Shown: in pieces, positions 1-24,700 of the stretch | Position numbering within the stretch: position 1 is the first letter of the stretch | How the letters are laid out: every line of letters begins with the position of its first letter | DNA from: Owenia fusiformis | Lineage: Eukaryota > Annelida > Polychaeta > Sabellida > Oweniidae | Assembly: GCA_903813345.2 (NCBI GenBank) | Contig: CAIIXF020000002.1 | Coordinates: forward strand, 33,684,109 to 33,748,108 | Length of the DNA stretch: 64,000 nt | Direction: 5' to 3' | The notes under the pieces: generated by a model | Told to the model about the DNA's origin: nothing | Seen by the model: the letters and a program-made list of their open reading frames with translations, nothing else | Database searches by the model: none | Program-made: the position numbers and the translations under genes

Positions 1-671
1 GATGATATACAACAGGGTAGGAGCTGGAGTAACCACATCAACATCATTTGATAACACAGTATATTTGATATTCTAAAATCAAAATAATATAACTATTACT
101 AAAAAAACAATTTTTAGGGATGAACTGATCGATTGTATGCACTCTGTTAAACTAGTTTCACTTGAAAACAGTAGCTCTGTGGAGTAGCAAATCCCACCAA
201 ACAAAATATATTTTATCAATTTAAAATACCTTGTCATCTTTGATGTTACATTATAGAAATATCCAGGAAATTAGAAGAAGTCTTGTCTCGTTTTGGTATT
301 TGCATTATCAAAATCATTTAGAAATAAGTGGCCATATTGAAAATCCCTCCTTTAGCAGAGGTCCTTTGCCCATAAGACAGAAGCCTCCAATATTTGAACC
401 AAATTCTGTAGATGGTATTTAAGTAACCACTTTGAAATTCAGTAACCCTCTTGAAACATTATCCTTGAGAAGCGCTCCTACAACACTAGGCCTCAGCACA
501 TAAAATTTTGACCAAATCTGTCAATCGGTATTTGAGTTATTGCAAAGATACACAAACAGATGAACAGAAGGATGGGTGGATTCTCTATATCCCTACAAAC
601 TTCATTCGGTGGGATAATTAACAAATACAAATTTTTGCAACAAAAATAACTAATATTTCTTAAATGAAATC
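1..671. other. AS3MT intron sequence, nothing recognised
   Basis: Lies in the intron after AS3MT exon 4. I found no exon matching the rest of the protein, so the next exon is beyond the left edge. AT-rich, with no clear terminal repeats. Confidence 0.6.
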
Positions 672-1340
672 TAGTGTTCTTACCTTGAGTACTCTATAAG
701 CCTCGGCTATAACTGCATGCTTGTCATTAATACTAGTGTTCTTACCTTGAGTACTCTATAAGCCTCAGCTATAACTGCATGCTTGTCATTAATACTAGTG
801 TTCTTACCTTGAGTACTCTATAAGCCTCAGCTATAACTGCATGCTTGTCATTAATACTAGTGTTCTTACCTTGAGTACTCTATAAGCCTCAGCTATAACT
901 GCATGCTTGTCATTAATTCTAGTGTTCTTACCTTGAGTACTCTATAAGCCTCAGCTATAACTGCATGCTTGTCATTAATTCTAGTGTTCTTACCTTGAGT
1001 ACTCTATAAGCCTCAGCTATAACTGCATGCTTGTCATTAATTCTAGTGTTCTTACCTTGAGTACTCTATAAGCCTCAGCTATAACTGCATGCTTGTCATT
1101 AATTCTAGTGTTCTTACCTAGAGTACTCTATAAGCCTCAGCTATAACTGCATGCTTGTCATTAATTCTAGTGTTCTTACCTAGAGTACTCTATAAGCCTC
1201 AGCTATAACTGCATGCTTGTCATTAATTCTAGTGTTCTTACCTTGAGTACTCTATAAGCCTCAGCTATAACTGCATGCTTGTCATTTATACTAGTGTTCT
1301 TACCTTGAGTACTCTGTAAGCCTCAGCTATAACTGCATGC
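672..1340 (-). repeat. Exon-edge minisatellite: AS3MT exon 4 end plus donor, 11 x 62 bp
   Basis: Eleven head-to-tail units of 62 bp. Read on the minus strand, each holds the last 14 or so codons of AS3MT exon 4 (DKHAVIAEAYRVLK), the splice donor AAG|GTAAG, and about 20 bp of intron. The unit nearest the gene start (1291-1340) is the true exon end. The other ten lie in the intron as decoys. Two units (near 1105 and 1167) read TAG instead of AAG before the donor. A 62 bp period is not a multiple of three, so reading through brings stops. Confidence 0.95.
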
Positions 1341-3489
1341 TTGTCTGGGGAGAGGTTAATAACACAGTTGGAGCTAAAAATACAACAATTCTCAAATACA
1401 GGTTTTACTGACTATTACAAGCACATGACCCCTGAACCAGATAAACAATTTCATGCTGACATACGGCATCATAAATTACAGTTCTCTTTGAGCCCCCCCT
1501 CCCTCATATCAGGACCGCTCTCAAAATTGTAAGCATTTACTGATATTTTTGAATTTTTTGAACTACAAACTTGCTTCCTTTCAATTGTTTAGAATTTCCC
1601 ACCTTCCTAAAACATGATAAATTATGACCATGATAATTAGTATACTGTTGCAAGTAATTGTCATCATTTGAAATCACAACTTCTAAAGGAGATTACATGC
1701 CAGTCTTGAAATTTATTCTCCTCTAAACTGTGTGTTAACTTAACCTGAGGCAAAATAACTTGCAATAAATAAATGTTAACAAATGTATTCTCTTCTCACA
1801 CTATGATGTCAAATGCATTGTCTACTTACACAATGATGTCAAATGCATTGTCTACTCACACAATGATGTCAAATGCATTGTCTACTCACACAATGATGTC
1901 AAATGCATTGTCTACTCACACAATCATGTCAAATACATTGTCTACTCACACAATCATGTCAAATGCATTGTCTACTCACACAATCATGTCAAATGCATTG
2001 TCTACTCACACAATGATGTCAAATGCATTGTCTACTTACACAATGATGTCAAATGCATTGTCTACTCACACAATCATGTCAAATGCATTGTCTACTTACA
2101 CAATCATGTCAAATGCATTGTCTACTCACACAATGATGTCAAATGCATTGTCTACTCACACAATCATGTCAAATGCATTGTCTACTCACACAATGATGTC
2201 AAATGCATTGTCTACTCACACAATGATGTCAAATGCATTGTCTACTCACACAATGATGTCAAATACATTGTCTACTCACACAATGATGTCAAATGCATTG
2301 TCTACTCACACAATGAGGTCAAATACATTGTCTACTCACACAATGATGTCAAATGCATTGTCTACTCACACAATGATGTCAAATGTGTTGTCCTTTAGTC
2401 CAGCTTCTCCAAGTTTTTCAATGTAGCCTTTTACAAACTCTACATTAGACTTAGCAAAGCCAAACTTTTCTCTGTGGTAATCTATGTATTTATTAGCCAC
2501 TTCCAGCTAGAAATCAGAATATAGGATAATACGTTGAGAGAATTATTGTAACAATATCTTAAATAATACTTTAAACTGCATTTTAATGAACACCACAATT
2601 TAGTCAAATCAGACTGTTGTGGGAGGGAAATTTCCAATTAAACTTTTAAATATAAAACAAGTTAAGAGAATTTTCAAGTTGTGGCTTATAATACTTGTAA
2701 CGGAATGAAGGACGTGATCACTGCTGGTGGTGGTAGAGAAAGCTTTGATAATTTATAGCATAAGCACACCGTACCTGTTCATCTGTCATGTCAATTCCAA
2801 CAACATGTCCATTCTTTCCTACAAGCTTGCTAAGAATGTAGCAGTCTCTCCCTGACCCTGAGCCCAGATCCAATATGGACATATCCTCTAAGGTTGTAGG
2901 TATACATAGACCACAACCATAGTATCTGGTGAATAAATATGAGGAAAATGTTCACATGTTATATAGAACAATCATACATACCCTGAGTTTCAGAGCTTTG
3001 TACACTAGGCTCTGAGTAAGAGAAATAAGCAAACACTCTTGAAGATCTATTTGACCTTGAAGGTAGCTGTTATGGCCTTTTGTGAGAATGTCAATGTGCA
3101 ATAAATGCCTGCATGCACTTTGGATAGCACAGAATTCAGTGAATGCTACTTTAATTGAGTAGCTGGATTACAATTGACCATATTCTTAGCTGGGGATTGT
3201 TCAAAGGGTTATCTCCAACTCTAAGAGTGTAGATGAATAGCTCTTTCAAGGATATAAAATGTTTATAATGTTATACTTGAGGTGACTTCAAAATATAAAA
3301 CAAAATGGAGATTTAAACTTACTTAATGACAACTTCGTCATGTACTTGGGCAATTGCTTTTCTGATATGCTTGGCGATCTTTGCAGAGCCCTCTATTGAA
3401 ACACAGGCATTTGTCTTTAAGTCATCCGTCTTTGATAGCACTTTTCCATAGTAATCCTTCACAGAATCTGTTACCAACTCCTCAGCCAT
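1304..3489 (-). CDS. AS3MT: Arsenite methyltransferase, exons 1-4 (3' part off the window)
   Basis: Methylates trivalent arsenic with S-adenosylmethionine in the cytosol. Coding exons on the minus strand: 3489-3323, 2925-2775, 2506-2370 and 1373-1304. All have GT-AG borders and phases that join without a break, giving about 175 residues. Visible landmarks: Cys29 in TNACV, Cys60 in YYGCGL, the SAM-binding loop ILDLGSGSGRDCY around residues 72-84, GIDMT near 101, and Cys155 in SNCVINL. These three cysteines match the human Cys32, Cys61 and Cys156 used for arsenic binding. The fourth cysteine and the C-terminal half (after EAYRVLK) must lie left of position 1. The start ATG at 3489 sits one base inside an exon whose acceptor is at 3491-3492, so a non-coding 5' exon is expected upstream. 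The 3' ends of exons 3 and 4 are each copied many times in tandem in the following intron. The family call is certain; exon borders are inferred from sequence only. Confidence 0.95.
1793..2392 (-). repeat. Exon-edge minisatellite: AS3MT exon 3 end plus donor, 20 x 30 bp
   Basis: Twenty units of exactly 30 bp. On the minus strand each unit encodes the end of exon 3 (AFDIIV) followed by its donor GT|GTGAGT. The true exon end is at 2370 and the 19 copies downstream are intronic. The period is ten codons, so frame is kept, but each unit has an in-frame TGA right after the donor; use of any later donor would stop translation. Three decoy units, near 1830, 2040 and 2100, read GTAAGT and look stronger than the genuine GTGAGT. 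The array also gives a 217-codon open frame on the plus strand, which is an artefact of the period. Confidence 0.95.
2507..2774. other. AS3MT intron 2
   Basis: Plain intron between exons 2 and 3 on the minus strand, with donor GTACGG at 2774 and acceptor TTTCTAG ending at 2507. No repeat seen. Confidence 0.85.
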
Positions 3490-4110
3490 GCTATAACAAA
3501 GAGAATGAAACCAAATAGTGAAAGTCAGGATTGTTTTGTGAAATAACAATTTATGTCAACATGTAAATATATTTCTCAATTTACAATCGGTGGCTTAACC
3601 TTAAGCACAAGAACATAGTATGGATGTTAGAGGGTAGTTGTGTCTTTCTAATGATGTCTGTCGGACATATTCTTTGAGGTACTACAGGCCTGTAGCCAGG
3701 AATTTTCTGAAAATGAATCCCTCTTGGCAAAAGCTGGCTTTAGGCCTGTACTAGAAATACATGTAGCTGTAAATAACCCAAGTTACCAAAGCCAACTGCC
3801 AAGATTACATAAGTAAATAAAGTAATTTAGATTACTGAGTACATATATCTTATATATGGTAAAATCCATACAATATTGTACTAAGGGGCAACATTTTCAT
3901 CTTACAAAATAGCACACTTCTATAAACTACAGGACCCTATTACATAAACAGTGGAAGGCCATACGCTGATGAGTTGGACAATTATTTGATCAAGATGATG
4001 AGAGATTTGACTAATATAACACCTGGGGCAGGAGCATTTTTTGTTCCCACTAATTGCTAAACCTCTTCACTTATCTGCAAAACTTTGGTCACAACACAGA
4101 TAAGTCTGTA

Positions 4111-4363
4111 TGAGAGCTGTTCAATAAATTTTGATCAAAATGGTCTCGTTTTGATGTCATCACCAGAAGTGGTGACATATTATTATACTCAACAACAACT
4201 TTATTTGTGGATGGTGATAAAATAACATTTTTCCATCGTAAATTATAAAAGCATACACTCTATCGATAAATAGCCTGTAATTCCTGATTTCACCTTGATT
4301 TTCTAGCAAACAAGAAAATGAGAGCACCTGTACACTTTATCGGTATTTATTGAACAACCTTTG
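4111..4363. mobile_element. Mariner-like non-autonomous element
   Basis: The ends are inverted: TGAGAGCTGTTCAATAAAT on the left, and on the right the complement of CAAAGGTTGTTCAATAAAT. Both sides are bordered by TA (4109-4110 and 4364-4365). The GGTTGTTCAATAAAT end is typical of Tc1/mariner elements. It is about 253 bp with no transposase. Inside it, at 4150-4215, lies a piece of the dispersed TGTCACCACCAGAAGTGG family. Confidence 0.65.
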
Positions 4364-5832
4364 TACTTATTGAAACTGCAAAATTTCATCAGAAATATGC
4401 AGTATAGTACTGTATTGATACAACTGATTTCTCTAGAAGTGGCAACAATAGGCTAAACTGCAAGTCATTCCCGTTGATCCTGGGTTGAGTCTTCAATTAA
4501 TAAAATTTTGAGACTCCTACATACCTTATTTTTTACATGAACCAACTTTTTCTCATGAATGTATAAAAGCCATAAATTATTGACTCACGGGATGTCATCG
4601 ACTTATTTGGTCAATGTGGCAGAGCAAGTCGTTTTTACAAGAAATTTCAAGATTTTCAAACAATTTATTTTTTTAACTGGAAATCTGCTTATTCCAAGAG
4701 AAAATGAACCAGTATATACAATGACAATGACAATCATCCTTCCGGAAGCGGAAGTCTTTTATGATCTTTGACTGTGAAAATTACTTGCTGCATGACCTTC
4801 TTCCTAATAAAATTGATTTTGGATTCTAGCCCCATTTGCATCTAAAGTTCTATTCAAAATTCTGCCTGATATTGACCATGTATTATACGTGTAAATGTCA
4901 AGAATTTGAAAGATAATGTAGAGTAAAATAACCACATGGTGCCTAGGTCTGAAAAAAACTTCAGCCACTAGCATAATAAGCCACGGATGTGACATGTCGT
5001 CGCATTCTAAGTCCCAGGTATTAAATATTTGTGAAACTTATGAAGTGTCAATTTAGAACATAGTGAAAATACTGCATCAAGTCAGAGAAGGTTATCCCGT
5101 GCCAGGACTACAGTGTACATGTACAATCCTGATATAGGCAGACGATCAGTCATATAAGCCTGAGAATTACACCCTAAATGATATAAGAAAAAAATAATCC
5201 ATACCTCAATCTTGCTATTCTTGCCAAATAATACTGGAAATGTAAGACCATTGCAAAAGGCTTAAATCATATTCAGAGCACCTTATTTTCGTGAATGGAC
5301 CAATCAGGATGCATGCGACACTCATGTACAACAGCCATAAAGATATGGAATGTGAATTTCACTTCCATTGCCTGGTGTATAATCAGCTTAGAGTAATTTA
5401 CTGTAGAACTGTCTGTGTTACACGATCACTAGGACATTACCCACAAACACTGGTGATCCGCTCGATTATGCTGGTTACTCGTAATTCGTCACTAAGTTAC
5501 ATAAACGGTTTCGGTTAAAAGTGCAGATCTTGTTTTTCGAAAAAACCGTTTCGATAACTTAAGTGAGGAATTAAATCGATGATTCTGTTGTCTTCTGAAC
5601 AATTTGTTCGCAAATATATACATTTTCTTAAACATATGATACTGACACACGTTTGTTTTAAAAATGTCGTGGGAATTCTGCCCACAACATGTGAAATAAG
5701 GAAAAATCGTACCTTCGATGTTCCGACATTTTGTTACCGAAACGAACCGCAAGGGTATTGGACATGGAAACTTACTTCATGTCACTTGTGTACATACTCT
5801 ACATTACTTCCTGCGAAAGCTACATTGTATTT

Positions 5833-6109
5833 AGTTCAACAAGTTAAACCTAGTCTGGGCCTTATTTCTTATCTGACATTTCTTGTGGCCCACCCTAGGT
5901 TTAACATCCGTGCCTATTCGGCCCTTGATGCAAAAAATTTTAATGATGGCCTATGACAGCGCATGGAATTCTATGCGCGTTTTATTAATAACTGATAGTG
6001 AGAATTTGCAACCAATGAAAGCATAGCACGGAAGTTAAACCCAACCACGGCAACAAGAACACTCAGATTATAAATGAAAGCCGTGGTATTGGGTTTAACT
6101 TGTTGAACT
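5833..6109. mobile_element. 277 bp inverted-repeat element with an 11 bp target duplication
   Basis: Ends are AGTTCAACAAGTTAAACC and its exact inverse. The direct repeat ACATTGTATTT flanks it at 5822-5832 and 6110-6120. An 11 bp duplication fits Mutator-like elements (usually 9-11 bp), but no transposase is present, so the superfamily is inferred. Confidence 0.8.
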
Positions 6110-6262
6110 ACATTGTATTTGGATTTTGATAAGTTTCAAAATCTAACATGGCTCTCGAAGTGAGCCTCTACACAGATTCTAGCAATGGCAACAATAGTAT
6201 TCTATAAACAAAGTTATTAGTAGCACACATGGTTATTTTATGGTGTTCTTTGTTCGCAACTC

Positions 6263-6330
6263 ACCTTATGATCGACAGAATATTACGAATCTCCTCGACT
6301 TTTCAACTTTTCTTAAACCGGAAGTGGCCC
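6263..6330 (-). promoter_or_regulatory. Candidate AS3MT leader exon donor
   Basis: On the minus strand, CATAAG|GTGAGT at 6265/6264 is a full-consensus splice donor about 2.8 kb upstream of the AS3MT start-codon exon, which needs an upstream leader because its acceptor stands one base before the ATG. The transcription start is not visible. Confidence 0.4.
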
Positions 6331-6462
6331 TATTACCTGTGGCGACATCTGTTAAAAGTAAAAGTTGAGAAATTTAAAAGAAAATCCACGTAGACGTTTT
6401 CGCTGATTAGGCAAACCAGAGATTCATATTCTCACATTTAAATCTACATAGACAACGATAAG
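6265..6462. promoter_or_regulatory. Probable divergent promoter of AS3MT and UGDH
   Basis: Between a minus-strand donor (6265) and a plus-strand donor ATAAG|GTATGT (6462) lie 198 bp with CCGGAAGTG at 6318-6326. That is the ETS/GABP core often found in TATA-less two-way promoters. Both genes need a non-coding leader exon, and this is the point between them where both donors occur back to back. This is inference; no start sites are visible. Confidence 0.4.
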
Positions 6463-9400
6463 GTATGTCCTGAATTTATTCTGTTACATGCTGGGATAAT
6501 TTTGACTACACAGACGGATAAATAGACTTTTGTGAAGTTGAGTCAGATTTGACAACCGAAGTCCAAGTGAAAAATAATTTTCGTCCGTGAGTTTGAGACT
6601 TCAGCTGGTATTCTCACAGTAAATATTCATAGATCAAATGTCGGTCCTGTCCTCTGATTTTACCATTTGACAGACACTCATAAATCCCTAATTCATCTCA
6701 CTTTTAGTGCTATCATATGATCTGATATTACTCTTCGTGACCACAGTCCAGAGAAATGGGTGTGGCTTAACTTCTTATAATGTCACTATATCGTGGCCTT
6801 CATCCAAAGATAAATCCATGCATGTTTTTTTACTGCTGTATACAGGTCATGTTGTAATCATAAAATTTGAAATCGCTAACTTAGAATTTACAGCCAGTTA
6901 TTAATGTCAGACAATTACGACATTTCGTCCAGTTTCTGAATATCGCCATTTTTCTTAGAGCCGTTTATTTTAATTTTAGACAAAATCCTGACAAAATCAT
7001 GCAATATCTCATCAAGGAGCTCGCAAGGAGCCTAGTCAGTCCCATTTTAATTCATGATTTATTTATCTGGCGATTTTTAAATATATTTAATAAATTTATA
7101 GCACGATGGCCAGCTTTGTTCAAATGGTTCACAGTGTTCCAGATGAAATTACTTCTAGCCAAGAATTACCTAGAGACTCGAGTAAGGTGTGGCACATCAT
7201 ATATGATGATACATTTAATGTAAATTTTCATAGGTAATAATGATCTTGATAAAAACAGTTTTGGCTCAGCCTTATTAACATTGATGCCCTTTCCTTCTTG
7301 TTGTTCTTGTTTCAAGCCCGTCCGAAGCCCGGAGTTGGGGTTGGGGGACCCACCACCTCCCCTTTTCAGAAGTTTTCTGGAAAATTGTATTGATGCAAAT
7401 ATGGCTCAGTTTTGCTCACAATGCACCAGAGAGGGTCTAAAATTTTTTCCAGGGGCCCAGTCCCCCTAGCTTGCGATGCATTGGCATAGGTTCCGGGTGA
7501 CTGGTAGCATAATAGAAGTGTCACGGTCCAAAAAAATTTCGATACGGTACAGAATGGTACACATGGTCGCTGGACATGGTACATTCGGGACGGGACAGAA
7601 CAATAGAGAAAAACGATGCAATGTCTGATGATGGCAGTTTCACTTTTCAAAATCATATTCAGATATAAAAAACGTCAATTAAAATCTAATATAATGCATC
7701 TGCCACGAATGTGTTCGGCATTTCACATAATCTGCATTTTGCCTGTTTACTCTCAATGTAACTTTTCTCAACTGAACTCATGTGCACTTTGTATCTGTGT
7801 TTTTGACCTCTATTGATTAGCCTTAATTTTCATAAGCCTATTTGAATTCATAAAAACATTGTCATTTACTATTCAAAACAACTTACATAATTTTATATCA
7901 CAATAGCATAACCCATCCAATCTCAATATTCACCCCTCCCCTGGTAAATCCTTTGGACGTCTGTGTTTGTCTCTGTTCTCTCACTTTTAATTTTCACTTA
8001 TTACTCACATGTTGTTTTACTCAGCCATTTTTTGTAATGAGCCGATCTATAATTACAGAGGGGTTAAGGGGTTTGCCAGTTTTATTTCAATGGCAAATTC
8101 AGCCAGTGTTTTAAAATGTTAGCAGTATTTTAATTTATTGGACCATAAATACAGAACTAAGTTAACATTATATTTCTTACTCTGAATTCACCTTAAATAA
8201 ATGCTGAAGTTTGAGTTCTATAGGTATCTGCAGAAAATGCCTAAAAATAAGATGGAAATATTTACTGAGTTTACTGAGGTAAGAAAATATTGCACTGCCA
8301 TCTCAGAACATTTCAGCTTTTGAAACATTTTAGAGGTGGCGTTATACAGATGAGCACAAACGTCATTGTTAAACTTGCTTGCTACATGTAATGCTAAAAC
8401 TGTATTATATTTACATTGTGCACTATTGCAAAGTCATTATGAAAATCAAAATACTCGTACAGTATTGTTTTATCAAATGAGACCACATTCATATTTTATG
8501 GAATGTTATCTTGTACTTGAGTGCAATGATATAAAACCTCTATTCATTCAGATATCAATTTCGCCCTGTCATCATGATCACCAAAATTCTCAAGATATCC
8601 AGTTATTCTCCGAGTCTATAAAGTTGCACATGTTTGATTTACTAAAGCTATCAATATTAATAAATATCTTAAAATGCATTGTCATTATATCATGATGAAG
8701 GAATGTATCTCTTCAATATAATATTAGTATACGTGCATCTATCCATAACTTTTACCTACAAGTACAGTTTTTTAAAACATTTTAGATGCTCTAACAGTGC
8801 TGGCTACTGATACGCTTCATCAGCAGTCTCACTCCTCCTGCTTTCAGATTGACAAGGAGTTACCCCAGAAATCCCTATTGCTCTCCACTCTCTCCTTCGA
8901 TTTTTACAACTGATTGTTGATTTTACAGTTTCAATGTTGACATCTCAAATCTAACCAAACTTTTAATGGCATTTATGGAGGTTTAGATTTGAAATGATTT
9001 AATCTCACAGTTGGTGGAATCAAACTTTAAGAAGTTGGAAAGTGTTCATATATTTATTTCATACAGGTCAAAATCAGATTTATTAAGTAAATTATTTGTT
9101 ATATAATTTTTTTCATTATACACCATTGTCATTAATCTTGGGTTGATTATTCATGGTACGTATTTTAAAGTGGAAATGAAAATATAAAACTTGGAAAGTG
9201 TTGAAAATGTTTATTTTAAATTTAAGTTGCTGAAATGTCTTCATTTATTAAAACTGAAAGAAGGTGACATGTACTTTTGAAAAACCATTGCCAAATGTCT
9301 AAATAAACTTAAAAACCTAAAGATTATCATGATAAAAGTCAAATAAAGTCAAAACTGTTGAACCTATTGTGACTTGATTCTCAGCACCATCTTTATGAGT

Positions 9401-10222
9401 ACAAGCAAATTAGATAAAAAGCTACTCTGACATCCTTGGCTCAAGTCTTGAGCTGCTATGAAGGCACTGCTTCGATAAATCAGAGTATATTGAACCTTTA
9501 AGAAAATACATGTATCACAAGAAATGTTACATGTTGTGAAGAAAAACTATTGCAAAATTGTGACGTTAATCTTTAGTTTTCTATAGCTTTTGCTGTTTCT
9601 TTAAATTGCTTTGATCTTTGTCATTTGAATCGGTTTATTCTAATAAAGGGTGTGGTTTGTGTTAAATCTTTTCGTCACACCATAAACTTATCAATAACCT
9701 ATATATTGACATTTGACTGTTTATTTAATATGTCATGACGTATGTTTCAATCATTACCAAAGGTTTGTTCAATAAGCACTTACCTAAAAAGGAAGTCACG
9801 CAAATCATCATAAAGAAATAAAAAGCTCACATAGTTCAAACAGGTATCATATTTGAATCAAGATATTTCTCTAAGACATTACATTTAGAGACTTAAACTG
9901 TACCAGAGGGATCAAATATTGGTAAGTAAACATAATATGATGAATTTTTATTTAAAGTGAAATCCTCCCCTTTAATAAACTAAAGTTGTAGTTATTCAAG
10001 TATGTTCAAGAGTGTGTTTTAACCTCATTATGTATTGTAAAGATTTACACAAATTAAAATTAGGCAGAATAATCCTTTACCGCACCCTTTCTCTCTTTAG
10101 TATGTAAGTGTTATTGAAATAGAGAGAGAGGGCTGAGTATTTACCCGTCACTTTAGACTAGCTACCTGGTAAGTTAAATCAATTGGTATATGAGATGACA
10201 TGCTTAGTTTTAAGAATGAGTA
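6463..10222. other. Long non-coding stretch upstream of UGDH
   Basis: AT-rich. A G/C-rich patch at 7310-7480 resembles transposon debris but has no clear ends. No exon with similarity to known proteins was seen. It may be the first intron of UGDH. Confidence 0.5.
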
Positions 10223-10224
10223 TA

Positions 10225-10417
10225 CAGTAAAACCTGTTTTAGTGAACACCTCTCTCTGGTGAATACCTCTCTCTACTGAATACCTCTCTCTAGTGGACAC
10301 CCCTCATCTGCACATACTTTATTGATCACTGTATAAATTACTCTCTCTGGAGTGAACACCTTCCAACACTGAACATTTTTCTTGGCAAAAAATGTTCAAT
10401 ATACACAGGTTATACTG
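10225..10417. mobile_element. MITE, TA-flanked, CAGTAAAACCTG ends
   Basis: The left end CAGTAAAACCTGT and the right end (inverse of CAGTATAACCTGT) are bordered by TA at 10223-10224 and 10418-10419. Length is 193 bp with no coding capacity. Inside are about four 17 bp units of the type TGAACACCTCTCTCTGG. The TA target and ends fit a Tc1/mariner MITE. Confidence 0.75.
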
Positions 10418-11782
10418 TAGATCAGCAAAAACTGCCAAGTGATACTGAGTTTGACATCTTTGTAAGTGAAACACTTTTCTCAGTGCCATCAGTTGATGTT
10501 AAATTAACCTCTGTCAGTAGAGTGGCTCGTACAAATAGAACTCCTAAACTCCTTCGGATGGTTATATTTTGGGTGCAAATTTTTCTTTTCACAGTGTTTC
10601 CCAAAGTTGGTCAAAATACTCTAAGAGGACAGATCCACTCTTATGCCCAGCATAACAACAGTTCTTCTCTTATGCCCGGCATAAGAATTGAACCTATTTT
10701 GCCCAAACATCATGTTTGCTGAAGTCCGAGTCAAAGTAGGATTCCAAGATCAAATGTTGAGGTGTTTCTTATTTTCATGTTTTTGCTTTTGAGTGGCTGT
10801 AACAGTTTTTAATATCTCAAGTGATATGTACCTATCCTATACCCCCCCCCCAGTATCCATAAGAATATTAGATTTTCGTTCAAGTAGGTGTAATTAAACA
10901 AGTTATTAAACTCCACCTTGATAGATTTGATTTTTCATATACAAAGCATTTTTGAGAAATTACTCATTTATCAACATGAATTATTCTTTTAAGTGCATGG
11001 AGAACATGTGCCAATGCTTTTTAGCTGCATTGTGAATGTAGGGGTTGGGACTATGCTCTTCACAATATTAGCAATGAATCATGGTTCTTGAGGGCCCTCA
11101 ACTCCCAAAAAATAATTAATTAAAATTTTATAGAATTAATTTCATTTATCTGGACAAATAACCATTGCGTTATATTCTAAACTCAGTCATTAACCTATGT
11201 TTTAACACCAATTGAACATTTTCCAAATTTTAAAATATGCTGCATACTGCAAAGCATACACTTTTAGGGTGCAGTGTGTCAGTGGTCAATCAGCTATTTA
11301 AAATAAATACTCATATTGTTTAACACAAGACTCTTGATATGTTAGCGTGATCCATAAACTTAACACACACATAATTATTAACTCAGTGTACATACCAGTA
11401 TGTAAAGCTGCAGTATTACCATTGGCCAGGAAGTATAAAGAAGCATGCGGAGATTGTCATAATCCATGTTTATTTAAAGATGCTACGATTGATCAACAAA
11501 TAAATACGCAGAAACAGACAGGATAATTGGATAATCAAATAAAACTTGTCAAAGCCTCATGGTATAAAATCACGCAGAAACTCATGAATTTGAAGTAAAT
11601 CTTATAAGGCTACATACAGTTGTATACTTTATATAAACAGTAGTGCCACATCAACACAAATATACAATACACATCAGCAGGTGAATTTAATTTTCCGAGT
11701 TATTGAACGGTATCAAACGGGAAAGAGGAACATAAATACGGACAATTTTACTATTTTATCAACTTGATAGATATTAGGCAAC

Positions 11783-11829
11783 ATGGGACCAAGAGGAGCT
11801 CAGGATATCAGTGGAAAACCAACTTTAAG
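11783..11829 (+). CDS. Candidate alternative first coding exon of UGDH
   Basis: ATG in a good context (GCAACATGG), 15 codons reading MGPRGAQDISGKPTL, then AG|GTGAAT. Joined to the acceptor at 15727-15728 the frame runs on (AG+T TAT TTT GAT ATG) straight into the usual UGDH start, adding 19 residues ahead of [19 protein letters not shown] box lies about 50 bp upstream. Only one splice signal plus frame agreement supports it, so chance is possible. Confidence 0.35.
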
Positions 11830-12402
11830 GTGAATAAAAATCATATTCATTACCCTCGATAAATTTCTCATTGTTAGCTAATTTCATTGAAAACATCAAC
11901 TAAAGGGAATGTAATCATCTTAAGATTAAGACATTGGTGTTGATCAGAATAGCGAAGTACAGTAGACATATGTGTTACAAAATAACAACGTATATTAATT
12001 ATGATGCAATGTTCATTTTTTTATATCGTAAATGTAAATTCACAGTCATAAAAGTCAGGGTAAGGTCTGAGTTATAGTTCAAGTTAAACTATCACACATG
12101 CTATTTATATTCATTGATTTAAAGGTATCTTGTTAGCATGTGGTAAAAGTTGGCTCAAAGTCATCTTCATGAATGCTTTCCTTTTACATGTAATTGATTG
12201 TTTTCTATATATTCAGCCAGGGATGATTAGTCCTGCATCTAGCCCCTGTGAATCCCTCTATCTAACCCCTAGCATAGGTATATTGTCTATATTGGGCATG
12301 AGACTAGATTACAAGGGGTGGAAATACAGAGGCTTAATGCATGTTTAAAGTATAAAAAAACATTACTTTATCAAGCAAGAGGCCATGTTTTAAAGATATT
12401 GT

Positions 12403-12535
12403 TATGTCACCTCCAGAAGTCGTGACATAGTGTTAAAGTCTTTTTTTGTGGATGTTGTTTTGGCGGTCAGTGTCTAACAAATGGCAGGTGGTGATGTTTT
12501 GCTTTGCATGTTAATGCCTTGTTTTGGTTTTTGTT
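12403..12535 (+). repeat. Dispersed repeat copy (TGTCACC...GTGGATG family)
   Basis: Starts with a short palindrome like TGTCACCTCCAGAAGTCGTGACA, broken here into two arms, then TTTTTTTGTGGATG, AACAAATGGCAGG and TTAATGCCTTGTTTTGG. The same blocks in the same order recur at 23601-23758, 24678-24790, 27270-27395 and on the other strand at 37575-37700 and 46320-46405. Confidence 0.75.
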
Positions 12536-13910
12536 ATCTTTTAGTCTTTGGTCCAATGTAGGATTTGCACAGTTGTGTTTGAAGTAAGACTATTTCACTG
12601 TTCATTCAATCATGTTTTGTCATTTTTAGAGAAATGAGGAATGTATTATTAAAACTAATGATCTTTAATGAACTTGCCAATCCTAATAGAAGCAAGAAGC
12701 AAGAGCCTATCATATCCAATAGTTTGGTTTTGCCACTTTTGTTTAAAATCTAGCCATTACCTAATAAAAATACAGATACCAAAATACCATTCACTGAAAT
12801 GTATCCTTTCATAAGTGCCTGACATTTATTTCATATTCTAACTCACATTAAAGGCCATGGTAGTTACCTTTGATCGTGCCAGTGTAAATTCTATTTTTCT
12901 CAATATCAGAGCCTTAATATTATTGTCATTGACCCTAGGGTACTGAAAACCTGACTTAAGTCAGAAATTGCAAGAATTTGACTTTTAGTCAAAAGTCAAG
13001 TTGATCCACTTAATGGGCATTTCAATTCCTTGTCCACACATTAATCCAGAACCTAAATATAACTACTGAAAATTTTGGTTTGAACAACAAATCACAACAA
13101 ATATAAGTACTATTCATGAGGGTTAATGGTGCAGAATAACTTATGGCTAGAACACAGTTCAATGGTTTTCAGCCATTTTACTCTTCAAACTGTTCAAAGT
13201 GCCATATTATGATATGATCATGTGTTTTGTTCAGAGATGAAGCTTTCCTTGAGAGATATGAAACAACTAAGTCTCGAAAAGTGTAAATTCAATCAGATTT
13301 TAAATTTTAATTTCCACTGAGATTTCAAATCAATGATTAATTATTAAAAGTTTGATGTATGCTATAAATTATATTTATATCTGCTTCAAATATACTCCTT
13401 GCCCTTTTGCAGATTAGCATTAACATAACCATCACTCATTATGTCACCAAAAATTAGTAAGAATTTCTGTGTGACCTATTGTTGTAAAACCGCAAGTGGT
13501 AAAATCAAAGTGTTTAACTCAATAAGTAATAATGATACAATGTTTTTTAGCTCTTTTTAAAAGGAGGTGATATTAATTCTTAACTGAATCTTGACCCCCT
13601 CCCCCTCCCTAGTTAAGTCATCGAAGACTGATATTTATGTTGAAATGTCAAAATCAGAATAAGTGGCTAATGTGAGATAAACAGTTTTGGATTATAAGTG
13701 TCTCCTTACTGCATCTTTAGCTCATATTTCCTATCAAATTCACGTTTTCTTGAATAAACCTTATGTTCAAATTGTTTAAACTTATTTGAAACCATATTCC
13801 AAATATTTATATTTATTATGTTATTGTTTTGATTATTAATGAGTAGATACAAAATCTCACTGCGCTGCAATGAGATAGAATAGACTTACATGAAACTATG
13901 GCGATGCCAA

Positions 13911-14027
13911 CACTGGACGATCTCGGGGGTGGGAGGCCAGAAAAAAGATTAGGCCCAAATTCTTTTTTGAGGCCCTATTAGTGGGCCTTTTGGCCCTTAC
14001 CCTTGTTGGTGTCCAGATCAGCCCCTG
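13911..14027. mobile_element. hAT-like element remnant, short copy
   Basis: Begins CACTGGACGATCTCGGGGG, contains GGCCAGAAAAAAGATTAGGC, and ends CTTGTTGGTGTCCAGATCAG with CCCCTG. Both ends and the interior match the longer copy at 55553-55970. No target duplication is visible here, so this copy is older or truncated. Confidence 0.6.
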
Positions 14028-14458
14028 TTATCTCTCCATGTTATAATTCTTCTGAAATAGTTGCAAACATGCAACATGTATAAATGTATATGTACATATA
14101 TTTTAGATAATGGGATACTGTTATACCAGTATATTCCTTCCTTCATAAAATTATTAAAATAGCTTTATGGTTCAAGTAGATTATTTGGAACCCGTGTATT
14201 TGTTTTTAATCATATTTAGAAAAACCCTTATCATTGGGTATGAATCTCATTTTACCCAGAAATGTTATAATAATTTTGCACATTTTATTTGTTAACTAAA
14301 TGTTGATTAATTTGATAATCTCAAACAGTTGCTAAAACAACTATTCGTTGATAGGAATTTTGTTAGAAACCAGTTCTTATCATATGTGAAGTAATTGAAA
14401 ACAGACATCCTATAGTACCTATACTTTACACATTACAGGTTTATGTGATATATTATAT

Positions 14459-14890
14459 ACTAAAAATGTTTAATTGATTTATATACTAAAAATGTTTAAT
14501 TGATTTATATACTACAAATGTTAATTGATTTATATACTACAAATGTTTAATTGATTTATATACTACAAATGTTTAATTGATTTATATACTAAAAATGTTT
14601 AATTGATTTATATACTACAAATGTTAATTGATTTATATACTACAAATGTTTAATTGATTTATATACTAAAAATGTTTAATTGATTTATATACTACAAATG
14701 TTAATTGATTTATATACTACAAATGTTTAATTGATTTATATAATACAAATGTTTAATTGATTTATATACTACAAATGTTTAATTGATTTATATAATACAA
14801 ATTTTTAATTGATTTATATACTACAAATGTTTAATTGATTTATATAATACACATGTTTAATTAATTTATATACTACAAATGTTTAATTGC
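14459..14890. repeat. AT-rich minisatellite, about 15 x 28 bp
   Basis: Head-to-tail copies of TTTATATACTACAAATG TTTAATTGA with small changes (AAA for CAA, one T lost). It lies about 850 bp before the UGDH start-codon exon and is not at an exon edge. Confidence 0.9.
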
Positions 14891-15728
14891 TTTTTTAACC
14901 ATTCAACCAGAAAGAACATCACTCAGTCTTGCATGTTACCTGAATAACCAATTTACAAAATAATGCAACTGAAATCTACTTCCATTTCATTTTAACTACA
15001 TTGTATTGATTCTGTGTATATTGTTAGGTTTAGCTTAGATTTTACACAATGATTGTGTCAAATGCGGTTATCTATACTTTAATCCAACACCATGTGCTGG
15101 TATGACAATTGCTAGAAATGTTTAAAACAAGCCAGTATGTTTTCATAAAGTTGTTTCAACCAGGAGTTACTAAAAAGGATAATTTACCCAGCTTTTTGTG
15201 AAAATTAGTACCTTATTAGGGGTTCGTTATGTTACATTATGAATTGAGGTAGGATTAATTTATATTAATGATTATTTGTTTTTAATGTGTTTTTTCTGAT
15301 TGATTGGATTGTTGAGAATATTTGCTTAAACAATTGTAGTTTTTATCATATGAAAGTGATATATAATATAACATGTAAAGTTGAATATGTGAGACATAGT
15401 ATCATTAATGTTCATATTTCAGAACTATTGTCAGTCTTAAAAACTGTAATTTCAATTTATACAACTGTTCTCATAAATATTTCATAAATGTACATTACAT
15501 TACATTCAATACATTGTATATATAATGACATAAAATATACTCAGCCTTCATTGTAATTGATAATGTTCTGCAAAAATAAAAATAAGAATAAATAAATAAG
15601 TAAAATTTAAAGATTAAATTGAAATTGTATGAACATTTTCAAAGCATCCTTAAATTTATCATCAACAGTATATCTTAGTATTTAGATGTTTTCATTTCCT
15701 AATGAATAAATTTTTTTTTTCATTTCAG
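14891..15728. other. Intron or leader ahead of the UGDH start exon
   Basis: AT-rich, ending in a long T run and TTTCATTTCAG at 15728, the acceptor of the start-codon exon. Nothing else recognised. Confidence 0.6.
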
Positions 15729-15738
15729 TTATTTTGAT

Positions 15739-18700
15739 ATGACACTCAAAAAGATCTGCTGTATTGGAGCTGGTTATGTCGGTGGACCAACATGTTGTGT
15801 TTTGGCGTCAAAATGTCCTGACATCACTGTGACAGTAGTTGACATCAGCGAGGCAAGAATCAAACAGTGGAACTCAGAGAAACTACCAATATTTGAGGTA
15901 TTGTAATAAGCTACACCATTCTTAATACAAATTCAATATCTCAGGCAGTGGCGTAGCGTGGGTATTTTATGAGTGTACGCCACGAGTGAGCGAAGCGAAC
16001 GAGCTTTGATGGTCGGGGGGGGGCCTTTTTCCCAAGAAAATTTGAAAAAATTAGATTGCATTTGAAGCGTTCTGGGGCATTTTAAAATACAAAATTCCGA
16101 CTACGAAAAAATAATATGGATTAATAAAATGTTAGGTCATTACTTCAGAATATTAAACGTGGGTCATTTCAATATCAAAAATTCACTTTTCTCAAAACTT
16201 TGAGAGTATGCTATGGCGTTTTATGCGTATATGACGCTACGCCACTGTCAGGAATATGTACAGTTAAATCTGTATATCTGAACACCTCTGTAGACTGGAA
16301 TCCAAACACCTGTCAATGTTAATACTTTTGTTTGGTCGCAATTTTGTTATTTCCTCTTAACTCACATATTAAGAGACTTTGAAAGGTGAACACCTGCTTA
16401 TCTGAACATTTTTGACTGGTTCCAGTGGTGTTCAGATGATACTGTATCATGTAATAAAAACTATGATTCACAAATTCAAGACTTAATGTTTTGAGGCATA
16501 TTTGAAAGAGAGAGTTTAATGGAGATACTCCCACAAAGCTTATCTATTAAAACAACATAAAATACATTAGATTAAAATATTGAGACATTTAAAGCCTTGG
16601 TTTATGAATTCCAATACAAGTTCTGAACAATGCTTTCATGGATTTAAAATATGGATAAAAAGATTCGATGTTTTGTCCCTTTAACATATGAGCCAGGCCA
16701 CAGGAGAACTTAGGGGTCTTATCACAGATTTTTCAATATTTTGATTTTTTGTTTATCTTAAAAAGCACTAAAAGACCTTTCAAATGAGCCATGACTTATG
16801 TCTTAACAATTTTTCCTTGCATATATAGACCCAAAATTCGGATTTTAATTTAGCACATTTTCCCCTTAATCTTGGGCACATTTTTGGCTCTAGCACAATT
16901 TTAATTTTTGTGATAAGACTGGTTTTCCTACGGCCAGGCTCATATATATTAGTTGGAATCTGGTAGTTGATTATAAATTTGTAAAAATGTATTATTTAGT
17001 GGCACAATTGCCTTTCATAGTGATACAATTGCCCTTCTTAGTGAGAGTGCCCCTTTAAGACTTCAAATGTCAATGTGTTGTAAATCACGTAACTATAGCA
17101 ATTGACTGTTTCATGTCCTTTGATATATTGATGACATTTCAAATGCCCTATAGAAGCTTTTTATGTATTACTTTGTATTAACACGATGCTGTTTAACTAT
17201 AATCCAAAGCCCATACCAGAATACAAATTACCTATTTGCATTACCCTCAGGCTTGTAAACACATAAGAAGACCTGTTTTACTTAACTTTGTTAAGTATCT
17301 TTGTGAACCTTACAGTAATTTGCGCAAAAATGTTTTACCTGTAATAATAATTTTTTGGGTCAGATAACATGGTTGATAAAGAAAAAGTCAAAATGAAAAA
17401 TAGTTTTGGTGAAGATACATTGTTGTATGTTGGCACATGTTGCTTTTAATTTTTGTCCCCTCTATAGCTCTGATGCTCCCTCTAATGCAGGATAAAAATG
17501 GTGAAATATCTCCTCTGATTCTAGCAATTTAGGGATGTCAAATTGAAAAACATTTAAATTGCACCAAAAATCATCAACATGTTTGTCCAAAAAAAAGTTC
17601 TGGGGGAGTCATTCCTGACCCCCCCCCCATTTCTAAGTTCTAAGTTGATCAACAATTTTTAAATCTAGTCTGTAGCAAGGTCATTTCCAGTTAAGAATAA
17701 ATTATAATTTTACACTCTGCATGCATCTGAATACACATATATTTTACAAGCATGTAATTCTGAACGGAGATGAAATAAATCATTGGATAAGTTTATTATA
17801 TTGTCTATAGCTTGATTAAAAGAAGATTTCTACTTAAATCGATAAAAGGATGTTTCTATTGTTTTAGTTAACGTTTTTTATTGATTATATTTGCTATTAA
17901 CATCATCTTTGTTGACAGTATTATAGTATTGTTATCCTATATGCAAGCTTTATTGCTTGTCCGTGTATAAGTGCTGAGGTTAGCAAATCTTGATAAAACT
18001 CTAAACTAAACAATCAGTGTTATGTCACTCGTTGAAGATTGGCAACATATTATTGACCAACTCCCAAAGATATTGGTTTTAATAGTTTGCAGTCACTGAC
18101 ACCACAACCTATCAAAAATGTGTGAATTGATCATTTGGCATTTTGATGTGTTATTAATCTATAACTTGAATTAGTTATGAATTGATTTTTCAAAATTTTA
18201 TAAAAGCTGAAGTCAAAAGAGCAGTGTTGTTTGTAATTTTAAGCTACATGTAAATGTTCAAATGGCTGTACTTCTACTTAATTTGGTGCTACTTATTTTG
18301 TTGGATTTGCTATTTTGAAAATTTGGCGGCTACTTAATTTGGCTGACTTGCAATATAACAATTACTAATGGTGCTTATTTTCTGGTACTAAAATTTCTTG
18401 GGAATTTGGCGGCTACTTATTTTTGGAGGACCATAACAATTTGACGTATCCACCAAATTAAGTGGAAGTGAAGGGTAATTCTATTAATATGCTCCAATAC
18501 ATGTATATTCAATTGGAAAACATTGAGTCTTTGGATTTAATCTGAAAAAGCAAAGAATTAATGTGTATCAAACCACTTGTTTATACCACTGGATGTCTCT
18601 ACGTGTATATCCAATTTAAAACTAGACTTGTCTCCAAAGGAAATGCCTCCAAAAATCCGATCCCTTTTCCTACATAGATTCAAATTTTAAGCAATTGTCA

Positions 18701-21700
18701 ATATATTTCAAATACAAGATTGCAATGACAAACACAAAAAGAATAATAAAAATCTCACAAGATCAAAACATGGCTTACCCCTGGATCAGAAATTACAACC
18801 AAATAAACCAGAATGCAAATTGTCTTGTTACCCCATATGTCGAAGTACCCCAAAGTGAAAAGATGGCATAAAAGTTCAAGCTATACCCTGACGCCTTGTC
18901 GTATGTTCTTTTTTGCAGCCTGAGTTAGATGATATAGTAAAGCAATGTAGAGGGAAGAATCTATTCTTTTCCACAGATGTGGACAAAGCAAATATGGCAT
19001 CAAGGTTCTAGCTATGCCCTAACACATTTTCCTATGTTCTTTTTGCAGCCTGGGTTAGACGATATAGTAAAGCAATGTAGAGGGAAGAATCTGTTCTTTT
19101 CCACAGATGTGGACAAAGCAAATATGGCATCAAGGTTCTAGCTATGCCCTAACACATTTTCCTATGTTCTTTTTGCAGCCTGGGTTAGACGATATAGTAA
19201 AGCAATATAGAGGGAAGAGTCTATTCTTTTCCACAGATGTAGACAAAGCAAATATGGCATCAAAGTTCTAGCTATACCTTAACACATTGTCCTATGTTCT
19301 TTTTGCAGCCTGGGTTAGATGATATAGTAAAGCAATATAGAGGGAAGAGTCTATTCTTTTCCACAGATGTAGACAAAGCAAATATGGCATCAAAGTTCTA
19401 GCTATACCTTAACACATTGTCCTATGTTCTTTTTGCAGCCTGGGTTAGATGATATAGTAAAGCAATATAGAGGGAAGAGTCTATTCTTTTCCACAGATGT
19501 GGACAAAGCAAATATGGCATCAAGGTTCTAGCTATGCCCTAACATATTTTCCTATGTTCTTTTTGCAGCCTGGGTTAGACGATATAGTAAAGCAATGTAG
19601 AGGGAAGAATCTGTTCTTTTCCACAGATGTGGACAAAGCAAATATGGCATCAAGGTTCTAGCTATGCCCTAACACATTGTCCTATGTTCTTTTTTCAGCC
19701 TGGGTTAGATGATATAGTAAAGCAATGTAGAGGGAAGAATCTGTTCTTTTCCACAGATGTGGACAAAGCCATCATAGAAGCTGAGCTAATCTTCATCTCT
19801 GTCAACACACCTACCAAAACATATGGCCTGGGAAAGGTAAGTTTAAAGGGATAGGGGATATAGTTATATGGCTTGGGAAAGATAAGTTTAAGGTGATATA
19901 ATTATATGGCCTGGGAAAGGTAAGTTTAAAGGGATAGGAGATTTAGTTATATGGCCTGGGAAAGGTAAGTTTAAGGGGATAAGGGATATAGTTATATGGC
20001 TTGGGAATGGTAAGTTTAAAGGGATAGGGGATATAGTTATATGGCTTGGGAATGGTAAGTTTAAAGGGATAGGGGATATAGTTATATGGCTTGGGAAAGA
20101 TAAGTTTAAAGGGATAGGAGATTTAGTTATATGGCCTGGGAAAGGTAAGTTTAAGGGGATAGGAGATATAGTTATATGGCCTGGGAAAGGTAAGTTTAAG
20201 GGGATAGGGGATATAGTTATATGGCCTGGGAAAGGTAAGTTTAAAGGGATAGGAGATTTAGTTATATGGCCTGGGAAAGGTAAGTTTAAGGGGATAGGGG
20301 ATATAGTTATATGGCTTGGGAATGGTAAGTTTCAAGGGATAGGGGATATAGTTATATGGCTTGGGAAAGATAAGTTTAAGGGGATTTTGGCTAACCCAAA
20401 GGTTTCTTTCTGTCCTATATTTAAAATTGTGCCAATGTATTGATTTGCAAACCCAAATGTGTCATTTTACCCTTTCAATAAACTCCTTTTCCTGTCTCTG
20501 AAAATGAATCTGATTAATCAGAACAACTTGCTTCCTGGTATGAAAATCCAGTCCTGTTTGTCTGTTTTAGTTTGAAACACTGGATAGATATTAAAGCAGC
20601 CATTTTGATTTTTGTTTGGGATTTTGTTCACCATGTTTGTTCCAATTTAAGGGATTTCATTAAAATCTAAATCATATATAGTATGAATTAATCAATCAAT
20701 ATTTCTCATTTAGATTCATATTCAGTTGTCATGGATGAAATCAATTTGACAAATTCAATTAGAAGTTGAAGTATGCATATCATGTCCACCTGTTAATTCA
20801 ATTCACTTGCTAAATACCATATGGTCTCTAGCATGTGTATGCTGGAAATATCAATTAGTTTTAATGAGATTAAAAAATCAATAGGCATCAATTAAAAGCA
20901 ATGTACTTAAAGCAGCATTGTATGGAATTAATGGTGCAATAAACCAATATGCTTTTGAATAAATACACAGCAATCGAAAAGCAATAAAAACCTTTTCATA
21001 TTTTTAGAAATAATCATGATATGATTCAATAATTCATAGGAGTTGTATAAGAACTGATAAATGATATTTCAGTAAATTGAGTATACAACCATGGGAAAGT
21101 GTTGGTTGATGGCTTGTTATTTGCTCTCATTGCGCCTAAATACCAGATGAACCAATGATATTTATTATTTACATGTAAAAGGAGGTGTCTAGATTTATAG
21201 GTTTCACTGAACTATTCAAAAGTTCAATGTAATGGCATTTAAGGTTGTCATTTTCCTTTCAATAATAACATAATCTGTAGTAAACATTTTCTAGTTCACC
21301 AATACACCATGAGTACTGTTCACTCATAGTTAAATTTACATTGGAAACTTCAGTGTAGTGCAGTACCTTATTGACATAAATGAATTGGTCAAAGCTTGAA
21401 ATATCATTCAAAGTGTCATACCTTTTTGACATACAGAATGCATGGTGGTATAGCATGGCGGTTACGTCAAGGCGATTTGCAAAATGTCGTAACCGTCATG
21501 CTATATCAGGGTGGAAAGAGGATTGTAAATGTGGTGTAGAGCTTAAATGAAGTTTGTTGTTGTTGTAGTCTTCCTTCATCTTTTATGACCACTCCCCTCT
21601 ACAAAATTCACCTCCACAAAACAAACTTTGAATATTTTAACAAAAGTGTACAAGAAGGATATCCTTATACATGTAGCTTTAAAATGTTTGACATAGCACA

Positions 21701-24700
21701 TATAATTCTTTGACACAAGGTTTGCAAGTGTGGCCAAGAGTTCTAAGATTGTTATTGTTGTTGTAGGGAAGAGCTGCTGACTTAAAACACCTAGAATCCT
21801 GTGCTAGAAGAATTGCAAATGTTGCCCAGAGTTCTAAGATTGTTATTGTTGTTGTAGGGAAGAGCTGCTGACTTAAAACACCTAGAATCCTGTGCTAGAA
21901 GAATTGCAAATGTGGCCAAGAGTTCTAAGATTGTTATTGTTGTTGTAGGGAAGAGCTGCTGACTTAAAACACCTAGAATCCTGTGCTAGAAGAATTGCAA
22001 ATGTGGCCAAGAGTTCTAAGATTGTTATTGTTGTTGTAGGGAAGAGCTGCTGACTTAAAACACCTAGAATCCTGTGCTAGAAGAATTGCAAATGTGGCCC
22101 AGAGTTCAAAGATCGTTGTTGAGAAAAGTACAGTACCAGTCAGAGCTGCAGAGAGCATCACAAACATTCTAAAAGCTAATGTCAAACCAAATGTCAAATA
22201 CCAGGTATGATATCTGCATATAAAATACATAGTGATAACGTCCCTAAATAGCACTAAATTGCACCCCTCCCCTTGATTAACCATAGCACTGGTGAATCAA
22301 GGTGAGAGATGCAGGGAAAGCGTTCGTGTTCGAGGGATTTTTATTTTATTTTGAGCCTTAAAGTGAGCCTAATATGACACTATATATTTTAAAAAACGTG
22401 TCTTTCTTGCCAAATTGGTCAAACATTTTAGATGGATAGAAAATGTGAATTTCCAGAACTGTCACTGAATACATCTAGTATAAAGCTATAAAGATAATTT
22501 TACTGGATCTCTAAGTAATAAAGCATAGGTTATTCTATTTTCAAAGAGAAGGAGAGAGTATATCAAAATTTCATATTGATCTTTTCTTGAGATATTTTAT
22601 TGTAAAATGAAATGCATGATTTTTATAAGCATTCAGTCATTTAGATGTCATGTCTAAGTTCACATTAGTTGCTATGTGTTTTAATAACCCAATTCTTTAT
22701 ATCCCTTTATTTTCAAAATTCTTTTTTAGGTTCTCTCAAATCCTGAGTTCCTCGCTGAAGGTACCGCGATAAAGGATTTATGTAACCCCGACCGTGTCCT
22801 GATTGGTGGAGAGAGATCGGCAGCGGGACAGGAAGCAATTGAGGCCTTATGTTGGGTTTATGAACATTGGGTCAGCAAAGAGAAAGTTATCACAATGAAC
22901 ACATGGTCATCAGAGTTATCAAAACTAGTATGTATTGGATTGGATTTTGGTCACTGCCATATTTTACACTTGAAGACAGAGCTAGAAATCTCTCATAGGA
23001 GGAGTCCAGATTTCTTTTATGTGCATCGGTACACAGTCATAGAAGTGCAAACCCTGGCCTATTATACAAATTGTTTTCATTCAAATTTAACTCATAAATA
23101 TTCATACTTAATTCACAAAACAATATAAAACATAAAAAGACTATTTATAAAATATAAACTATATAGCTCCTTTTTAGCTTGGTCAAATGTTTTTCTGAAA
23201 GGTTCAGTTGATTTATGCCTCAGTCACATTTGATCTACGGCAACCATACCACGACCCTAGATTCCCCAAAAATTCACAAGAAATATGCATAAAATAGGGA
23301 TAAGCACTTCGATGTAGATTTTTGTAGATTTTTGTGTAATTACGGCCCCTGTCGAGCAAATGTTAGTTAGGCTTAAGTGATTAACCTGCCTTGAAATACT
23401 GAATTGATATTTTTCAGGCTGCTAATGCTTTCCTTGCACAAAGAATCTCAAGTATAAATGCTATGTCAGCAGTGTGTGAAGCAACAGGGGCTGATGTTTC
23501 AGAGGTCAGCTATGCAGTGGGCTCAGACACTAGGATTGGACCAAAGTTTCTACAAGCTAGTGTTGGTAAGGTCCTTTATGCTCAATCTCTAATACCATTT
23601 TTATGTCACCACCAGAAGTGGTTAAATATCGTTATTATGCACCATCTATTGTTATAGTCTCCAACTTTTTTATGGACGGTGTTTGATGGTTGGCATTCAG
23701 TGGTTGGCATGTGTAACAAATGGCAGGTTGTGACATTTTGCATATTAATGCCTTGTTTAATTTGAATTGATATAAACATACAACTACATTTCTTGTTTCA
23801 AGATAAAATAAATCATCAACATGATAAATTTTCAACTTTACATGTTCAACTTTACAGTGTTCCACTTACACAAGTTTCACTGTGTTGTCATTGCCACAGT
23901 GTCTTTTGTGACTACTGTTTGTGTCATAATGTCAGTGACTGTGTCATTTGTTTCAATTTTTCAGTCAATTATTTTCTGTCAGTCTCATATTGAAAGTATT
24001 GATTGAAATGACCTGATCCGTAAAAGTGAAATAGCAAGTTGTGGTGACATTTTGCATGTTAAAGGCTTAAACATGATTTACTTGTTCAATTTTGTGACTC
24101 GTGTTTGAGTTTGGTGATGTCAGTGTCTAATCAACAGTTGTTATACACATTTTCAGGTTGTGATATTCAATCAATCCCATCTTAAAAGTATTAATTGAAT
24201 TGTTATATTTTTTAGGTTTTGGTGGAAGTTGTTTTCAGAAAGATGTGCTGAACTTAGTGTACCTTTGTGACTGTCTCAACTTACCAGAATGTGCAGCATA
24301 CTGGCAGCAGGTACTGTAGTGTAGTCTACCATACACTTCTCCCAATATTGGGATGGTAAAACAATATTTTCAAACATTACATGGGGCCTTTAATGATTCT
24401 ATTGTACTTCTCCCAATATTGGGATGGTTAAACAATATTTTCAAACTTTACATGGGACTTTTAATGATTCCATTACTTGGTGCAATAGTATTAGTCTATT
24501 CCATTTTGTTATTGCATTAATTGCTTGTTTTCAACAAATTCAAAAAGTGAATTTTATTTTGAGGAAGATAAAAGAGATAGGTTAGAGGTCATGTCAAATT
24601 AGAAATTTATTGCATATTTTTGTTGACTGAATATTATTCATTGATTGACTTGATCCCTAAAAGTGTCTGATATACTTTTTATGTCACAATCAAAAGTGGT

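Follow-up and report, generated by a model that had tools for sequence, protein, structure and literature searches.

Five tandem arrays spanning exon edges in the neighbouring AS3MT and UGDH genes

Genes of the window

Three genes were modelled in the window, the whole 64-kb stretch of DNA analysed here: AS3MT, UGDH, and a WWC/KIBRA-like gene. Exon borders were placed by hand from reading of the sequence, and the joined products were then checked. The resulting set comprises 59 borders (29 donors and 30 acceptors) and omits 5' UTR exons, the first WWC exon or exons, and the AS3MT exons that lie beyond the window.

The UGDH product contains three UDPG_MGDP_dh Pfam domains, and its residues 3-469 align to the solved UGDH chain 3tdk_A (E 1.3e-230), in an alignment that is gapless at the exon 1/2 and exon 2/3 junctions when the exons are joined at their innermost sites. 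AS3MT is represented by four coding exons on the minus strand, which encode 175 residues, with the remainder of the gene beyond the window; residues 38-175 align without gaps to the arsenite methyltransferase 8xt7_A. A preliminary description of this DNA had named the two genes and placed their exon edges correctly; the joined exons of both give conserved frames that align to solved proteins. The third gene, also on the minus strand, is assigned as WWC/KIBRA-like from Pfam matches to WWC1, WW, and C2. Coordinates of the exons and arrays discussed below are collected in Table 1.

Table 1. Gene features and exon-edge arrays of the window
Feature	Position	Strand	Remarks
AS3MT coding exon 4	1304..1373	-	3' end formed by the functional 62-bp copy
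AS3MT coding exon 3	2370..2506	-	joined-product alignment
AS3MT coding exons 1 + 2	3323-3491 (ATG at 3489) + 2775-2925	-	within 2775..3491
UGDH gene body	15729..26402	+	10 coding exons, complete frame, 476 aa from ATG at 15739
UGDH exon 2, 138 nt	19699..19836	+	flanked by an acceptor array and a donor array
UGDH exon 3	22040..22204	+	joined-product alignment
Donor-site array, 62 bp x 10.9	670..1345	-	AS3MT coding exon 4 end (1304); 10 decoy donors further along the transcript
Donor-site array, 30 bp x 20.4	1780..2392	-	AS3MT coding exon 3 end (2370); 19 decoy donors
Acceptor-site array, 130 bp x 7.0	18859..19769	+	UGDH exon 2 start (19699); used acceptor preceded by 6 decoys
Donor-site array, 45 bp x 12.7	19821..20385	+	UGDH exon 2 end (19836); 12 decoys, 9 with GT and 3 with AT
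Acceptor-site array, 91 bp x 4.4	21722..22121	+	UGDH exon 3 start (22040); 3 decoy acceptors
Candidate sixth exon-edge array, 20/59 bp	45388..45650	-	start lies 1 nt from a donor in the WWC (KIBRA-like) gene, that of exon 45652-45746

Tandem arrays at exon edges and elsewhere

Tandem repeats that span exon/intron borders have been termed "mirages" in amphioxus, where they are described in Adh3, in the globins BflGb6 and BflGb9, and at other loci (PMC3087553). The preliminary description had placed five arrays at exon edges in AS3MT and UGDH. Tandem Repeats Finder (TRF), run on the 64-kb window, recovered all five where they had been placed, with 90-98% matches, and in each of the five a coding border falls inside the array. 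Their units are unrelated in both length and sequence, which bears out the earlier view that they are independent of one another. All five are thus real, and the class that suits them best is that of the mirages, a rare kind of repeat, here at an unusual density. The known borders of AS3MT coding exons 1 and 2 have no array (the 5' end of exon 1 lies outside the model).

The arrays share a simple geometry. In all five, the exon's own copy of the unit is the one that adjoins the exon body, and this exon-linked copy is the first in the transcript in the donor arrays (n = 3) and the last in the acceptor arrays (n = 2). Exon sequence contributes as little as about 16 of 45 nt to the unit (UGDH exon 2 donor array) and as much as about 82 of 91 nt (UGDH exon 3 array), and across the five arrays there is no preferred unit breakpoint relative to the splice site. 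So wide a spread is what random breakpoints would give.

The array at 45388-45650 is a possible, degenerate sixth exon-edge array, many units of which contain a weak donor-like site (GG/GTAAA, where the slash marks the putative junction). As a sixth mirage, the WWC donor at 45652 is left as a candidate on three counts. Its best match to the array lies on the intron side, with the 12 exon bases alone scoring only 8; its full score was reached by 17 of 2000 shuffles; and another WWC donor scores nearly as well against the same array (20 versus 21). An intronic 55-bp array at 43820-44370 was set aside as an exon-border array, as the nearest border, a WWC exon acceptor, is 61 bp away and exon sequence is absent by reading. 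Its units, TGTTACACTTTTACAG/GTAGTG, place an acceptor-like and a donor-like site back to back, with six AG sites scoring 8 or more and the donor-like CAG/GTAGTG scoring 7.6, an arrangement that we take to be reminiscent of recursive splice sites.

Several other repeats and elements were noted in the window. Degenerate TTTACCCTATTCCATTTTGTATGTCATTA repeats, seen by reading at 25265-25460, lie directly upstream of the UGDH exon 8 acceptor; they are intronic only and absent from the TRF list. A perfect 71-bp tandem duplication (55761-55902; two copies, 100% matches in TRF) falls in none of the three modelled genes. A short, partly palindromic element, CTCCTGCCCTGAT ... ATCAGGACAGGAGCCGAAGTAA, occurs by reading in three introns of the WWC-like gene (approximately 43140-43205, 40465-40560, and 39770-39815), once just before an exon acceptor; it looks like a small inverted-repeat transposon. 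A 31-bp array with a hairpin-forming motif (46382-46843; z -4.41 as DNA) resembles, again by reading, a dispersed element with ACCACCAGAAGTGGTGACATA, pieces of which occur near 4160, 23605, 24685, and 27280. On the minus strand, a 572-codon open frame at 56879-58594 with a reverse transcriptase domain (RVT_1, E 1.2e-22) is probably a non-LTR retrotransposon, and the LDTGAD motif in an open frame at 63507-63998 presumably belongs to a retroelement protease. An Rfam scan at the gathering threshold and a tRNA scan gave no matches in the window.

Splice sites and variants within the arrays

The extra copies in the five arrays amount to 50 decoys, 47 of which retain GT or AG; the "rows of decoy splice sites" of the preliminary description are thus an apt phrase. 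The three decoys that have lost GT, with AT instead, all belong to the UGDH exon 2 donor array. When scored with small donor and acceptor matrices trained only on this window's other sites (25 donors and 28 acceptors), 35 of the 50 decoys equal or exceed the used site, and 3 exceed it. The donor used by AS3MT exon 3 is weak (2.4, GTGAGT), and three decoys in its array are stronger (4.23, GTAAGT). Only in the UGDH exon 2 acceptor array does the used site score above every decoy (11.55 versus 9.53 or less); there, the used acceptor has T in place of G at -4. By this small matrix, then, site strength provides no explanation in four of the five arrays, and position must decide.

Extension of an exon to any of its decoys leads to an early stop codon in or next to the array (50/50), so that decoy use would give no normal protein. 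Because intron sequence often holds stops, these decoy stops are weak evidence of anything special. The arrays are also poor in sites of the opposite kind. In the donor arrays, the best acceptor-like score is 3.4, compared with a median of 8.6 and a minimum of 2.3 for real acceptors, and in the acceptor arrays, the best donor-like score is 4.6, compared with a median of 8.2 and a minimum of 0.7 for real donors. Without good partner sites inside them, the arrays would not easily form extra exons of their own, and this inability may be why they are tolerated.

Variants among the copies bear on how the arrays have changed. Divergence from the used copy is greatest in the outermost copy in three of the five (AS3MT exons 4 and 3 and the UGDH exon 2 acceptor). 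At the UGDH exon 2 donor, decoy 1 has a 7-nt deletion and diverges further than the outermost copy does, and at UGDH exon 3 all three decoys are equally divergent. Three of the five arrays have a variant that is private to the used copy, and some show variants shared between neighbouring copies. Read from the sequences, these patterns point to copies being turned over locally, with less exchange towards the array edges, although not in every array. Missense changes occur in the exon parts of four of the six decoys at the UGDH exon 2 acceptor, as would be predicted for copies that do not code.

The UGDH exon 3 array is peculiar in that its unit is nearly all exon. Of the 46 nt that precede the used acceptor, the first 37 match the interior of exon 3 at 33 of 37 positions, so that exon-derived sequence occupies the place where this acceptor would presumably have its branch point and pyrimidine tract. 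This array may be a step towards a new intron.

Hairpin-driven instability was considered as a common cause and rejected. In plus-strand DNA folding of eight stretches, those from the five border arrays gave z values of -0.24 to 1.16. The three stretches from other arrays folded unusually well (46410-46530, z -4.41), somewhat well (34700-34820, z -1.83), and badly (14480-14610, z 3.09).

Origin of the arrays and relation to known repeats

How far the coincidence of arrays with exon borders exceeds chance depends on the test. After TRF rows with fewer than 3 copies had been dropped and overlapping rows merged by hand, 42 rows were reduced to 16 arrays, 9 of them in the three gene bodies. In a simulation in which each array was collapsed to one unit and the units were dropped at random in those gene bodies, 1.19 border-spanning arrays were expected, compared with 5 of 9 observed (P 0.0017 with seeds inside exons rejected; P 0.0007 without this rejection). 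Placement of seeds over the whole window gave an expectation of 0.56 of 16 arrays (P about 7e-5). A second test measured, at borders and at 3000 control positions, the frequency with which the local surround recurs nearby. With a 24-base surround, at least two nearby copies were found at 5 of 59 borders and 81 of 3000 controls (P 0.02), and at least one at 5 of 59 borders and 193 of 3000 controls, which is no excess (P 0.33). A 30-base surround gave 79 of 3000 controls for at least two copies (P 0.02) and 143 of 3000, again no excess, for at least one (P 0.15). The window was picked for a striking feature, and the P values therefore overstate the surprise. We grade an excess at borders as possible to likely; its size is moderate, it was identified post hoc, and it varies with the test. 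The idea that the other borders hold old, degenerate mirages was rejected, as a nearby copy was found at none of the remaining 54 of the 59 borders at either of two thresholds.

We consider it likely that these mirage minisatellites arose by chance duplications that happened to span a border, followed by array growth, and that they are tolerated through exon definition. On this account, a short tandem duplication would have fallen across an exon/intron border on five separate occasions and then expanded by slippage or unequal exchange to 4-20 copies. Good splice sites of a single kind are present in each unit, and just one copy adjoins the exon body and the partner site at its far end; under exon definition, the innermost acceptor and donor would therefore be paired and the rest of the array removed as intron. 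We infer the use of the innermost sites from protein conservation, and the mutational route and exon definition as the reason are likewise proposals from the sequence. Two observations sit less easily with this account: the donor used by AS3MT exon 3 is weaker than three of its decoys, and the partner-site scores inside arrays, though low, exceed those of the weakest real sites. Tolerance alone, moreover, leaves the border excess unexplained, as overlap is above the random-seeding prediction in two tests (P 0.0017 and 0.02).

That excess speaks for a rival in which mutation is coupled to splice sites or to transcription, perhaps through R-loops or RNA-templated repair from splicing intermediates, and would preferentially duplicate exon edges in this genome. 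The recurrence of the same kind of repeat in several amphioxus genes (PMC3087553, PMC3902484) also speaks for such a process. We nevertheless judge it unlikely. The position test with at least one copy gives no excess at either surround length, both the window and the feature were chosen post hoc, the varied exon share of the units indicates no fixed distance from the splice site, donors and acceptors are both affected, and none of the 33 modelled WWC borders has a nearby copy. The preliminary description had offered a choice between a local mechanism linked to splicing or transcription and an unusual tolerance. The latter fits better; the need for the former is less well supported, as the excess is moderate at best (P 0.0017 to 0.33, post hoc). 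Random tandem duplication together with tolerance by splicing is enough, and a splice-linked mutator is not demonstrated.

The arrays might instead be functional, with clustered sites regulating expression through poison splicing, U1 recruitment, or alternative isoforms like those of IFI6, whose repeat units are reported to serve as alternative donors (PMC4526556). Retention of the dinucleotide in 47 of the 50 decoys, and a stop after all 50, are what regulated unproductive splicing needs. However, arrays that are young and homogenised should have their dinucleotides intact in any case, GT is gone from three of the UGDH exon 2 decoys, and stops are common in introns; we think a functional role quite improbable. 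Mis-assembly, in which one or two real copies were inflated, has a precedent in an amphioxus globin mirage that was apparently misassembled in the draft genome (PMC3087553). It seems very unlikely here, because the copies differ by ordered variants and blocks, the five arrays are unrelated, and the class of mirages is known to be real.

With a GC content of 34.3%, compared with about 41% in amphioxus, the window may extend the range of mirages beyond amphioxus. The two mirage reports considered here concern cephalochordate hosts, the lancelets (PMC3087553, PMC3902484). The amphioxus mirages have units of 10-160 bp at 5' or 3' edges, with AG or GT in many but not all copies; RT-PCR suggested normal splicing, and mirages were proposed as a source of new introns (PMC3087553). 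Further examples are given in PGBD5 and, as cited there, TnC (PMC3902484), and both length polymorphism and somatic instability have been reported for the Adh3 mirage. The arrays here resemble these in that the unit spans the border, at either edge, and the splice dinucleotide is kept in many but not all copies. They differ in that five arrays, with up to 20 copies, lie in two adjacent genes and in that both edges of one 138-nt exon are amplified. It is this density that sets them apart.

Other relatives are less close. In tandem-duplication intron gain, the donor in one copy pairs with the acceptor in the next; the present arrays are similarly tandem duplications involving splice signals inside a gene, but each offers only one good kind of site. 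In human IFI6 (6-16), a minisatellite at an exon end is reported to supply multiple splice donors, and downstream repeat units are used as donors, giving coding isoforms (PMC4526556, citing Turri 1995). The donor arrays here are likewise tandem repeats with multiple donor sites at an exon end; in contrast, a stop is predicted for all 41 decoys of the three (10 + 19 + 12). Human segmental duplications contain internal tandem repeats where exons meet introns; these change the structure of genes and can create new introns or alternative splicing (PMC2812944). The location of these minisatellites is shared with the present arrays, but here the predicted coding sequence is unchanged. Passages from a study of intron motifs in C. 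elegans and from one of metallothionein in an earthworm describe no exon-border arrays.

A broader reading would make exon edges genome-wide hot spots of minisatellite birth, with many genes bearing rows of decoys of equal strength and a spliceosome that chooses by position alone. We regard this as rather unlikely; were it true, exon definition and intron birth could both be studied in this genome as in a natural laboratory. More immediately, the arrays touch on the old question of how the spliceosome picks among several equally good sites. UGDH exon 2, with 6 decoy acceptors upstream and 12 decoy donor copies downstream (9 with GT), is a locus at which the question can be put: a rule of "first transcribed, first used" would predict the outermost acceptor, whereas exon definition would predict that the innermost site is taken on either side. 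The arrays are of most use as a natural test of positional splice-site choice at equal strength.
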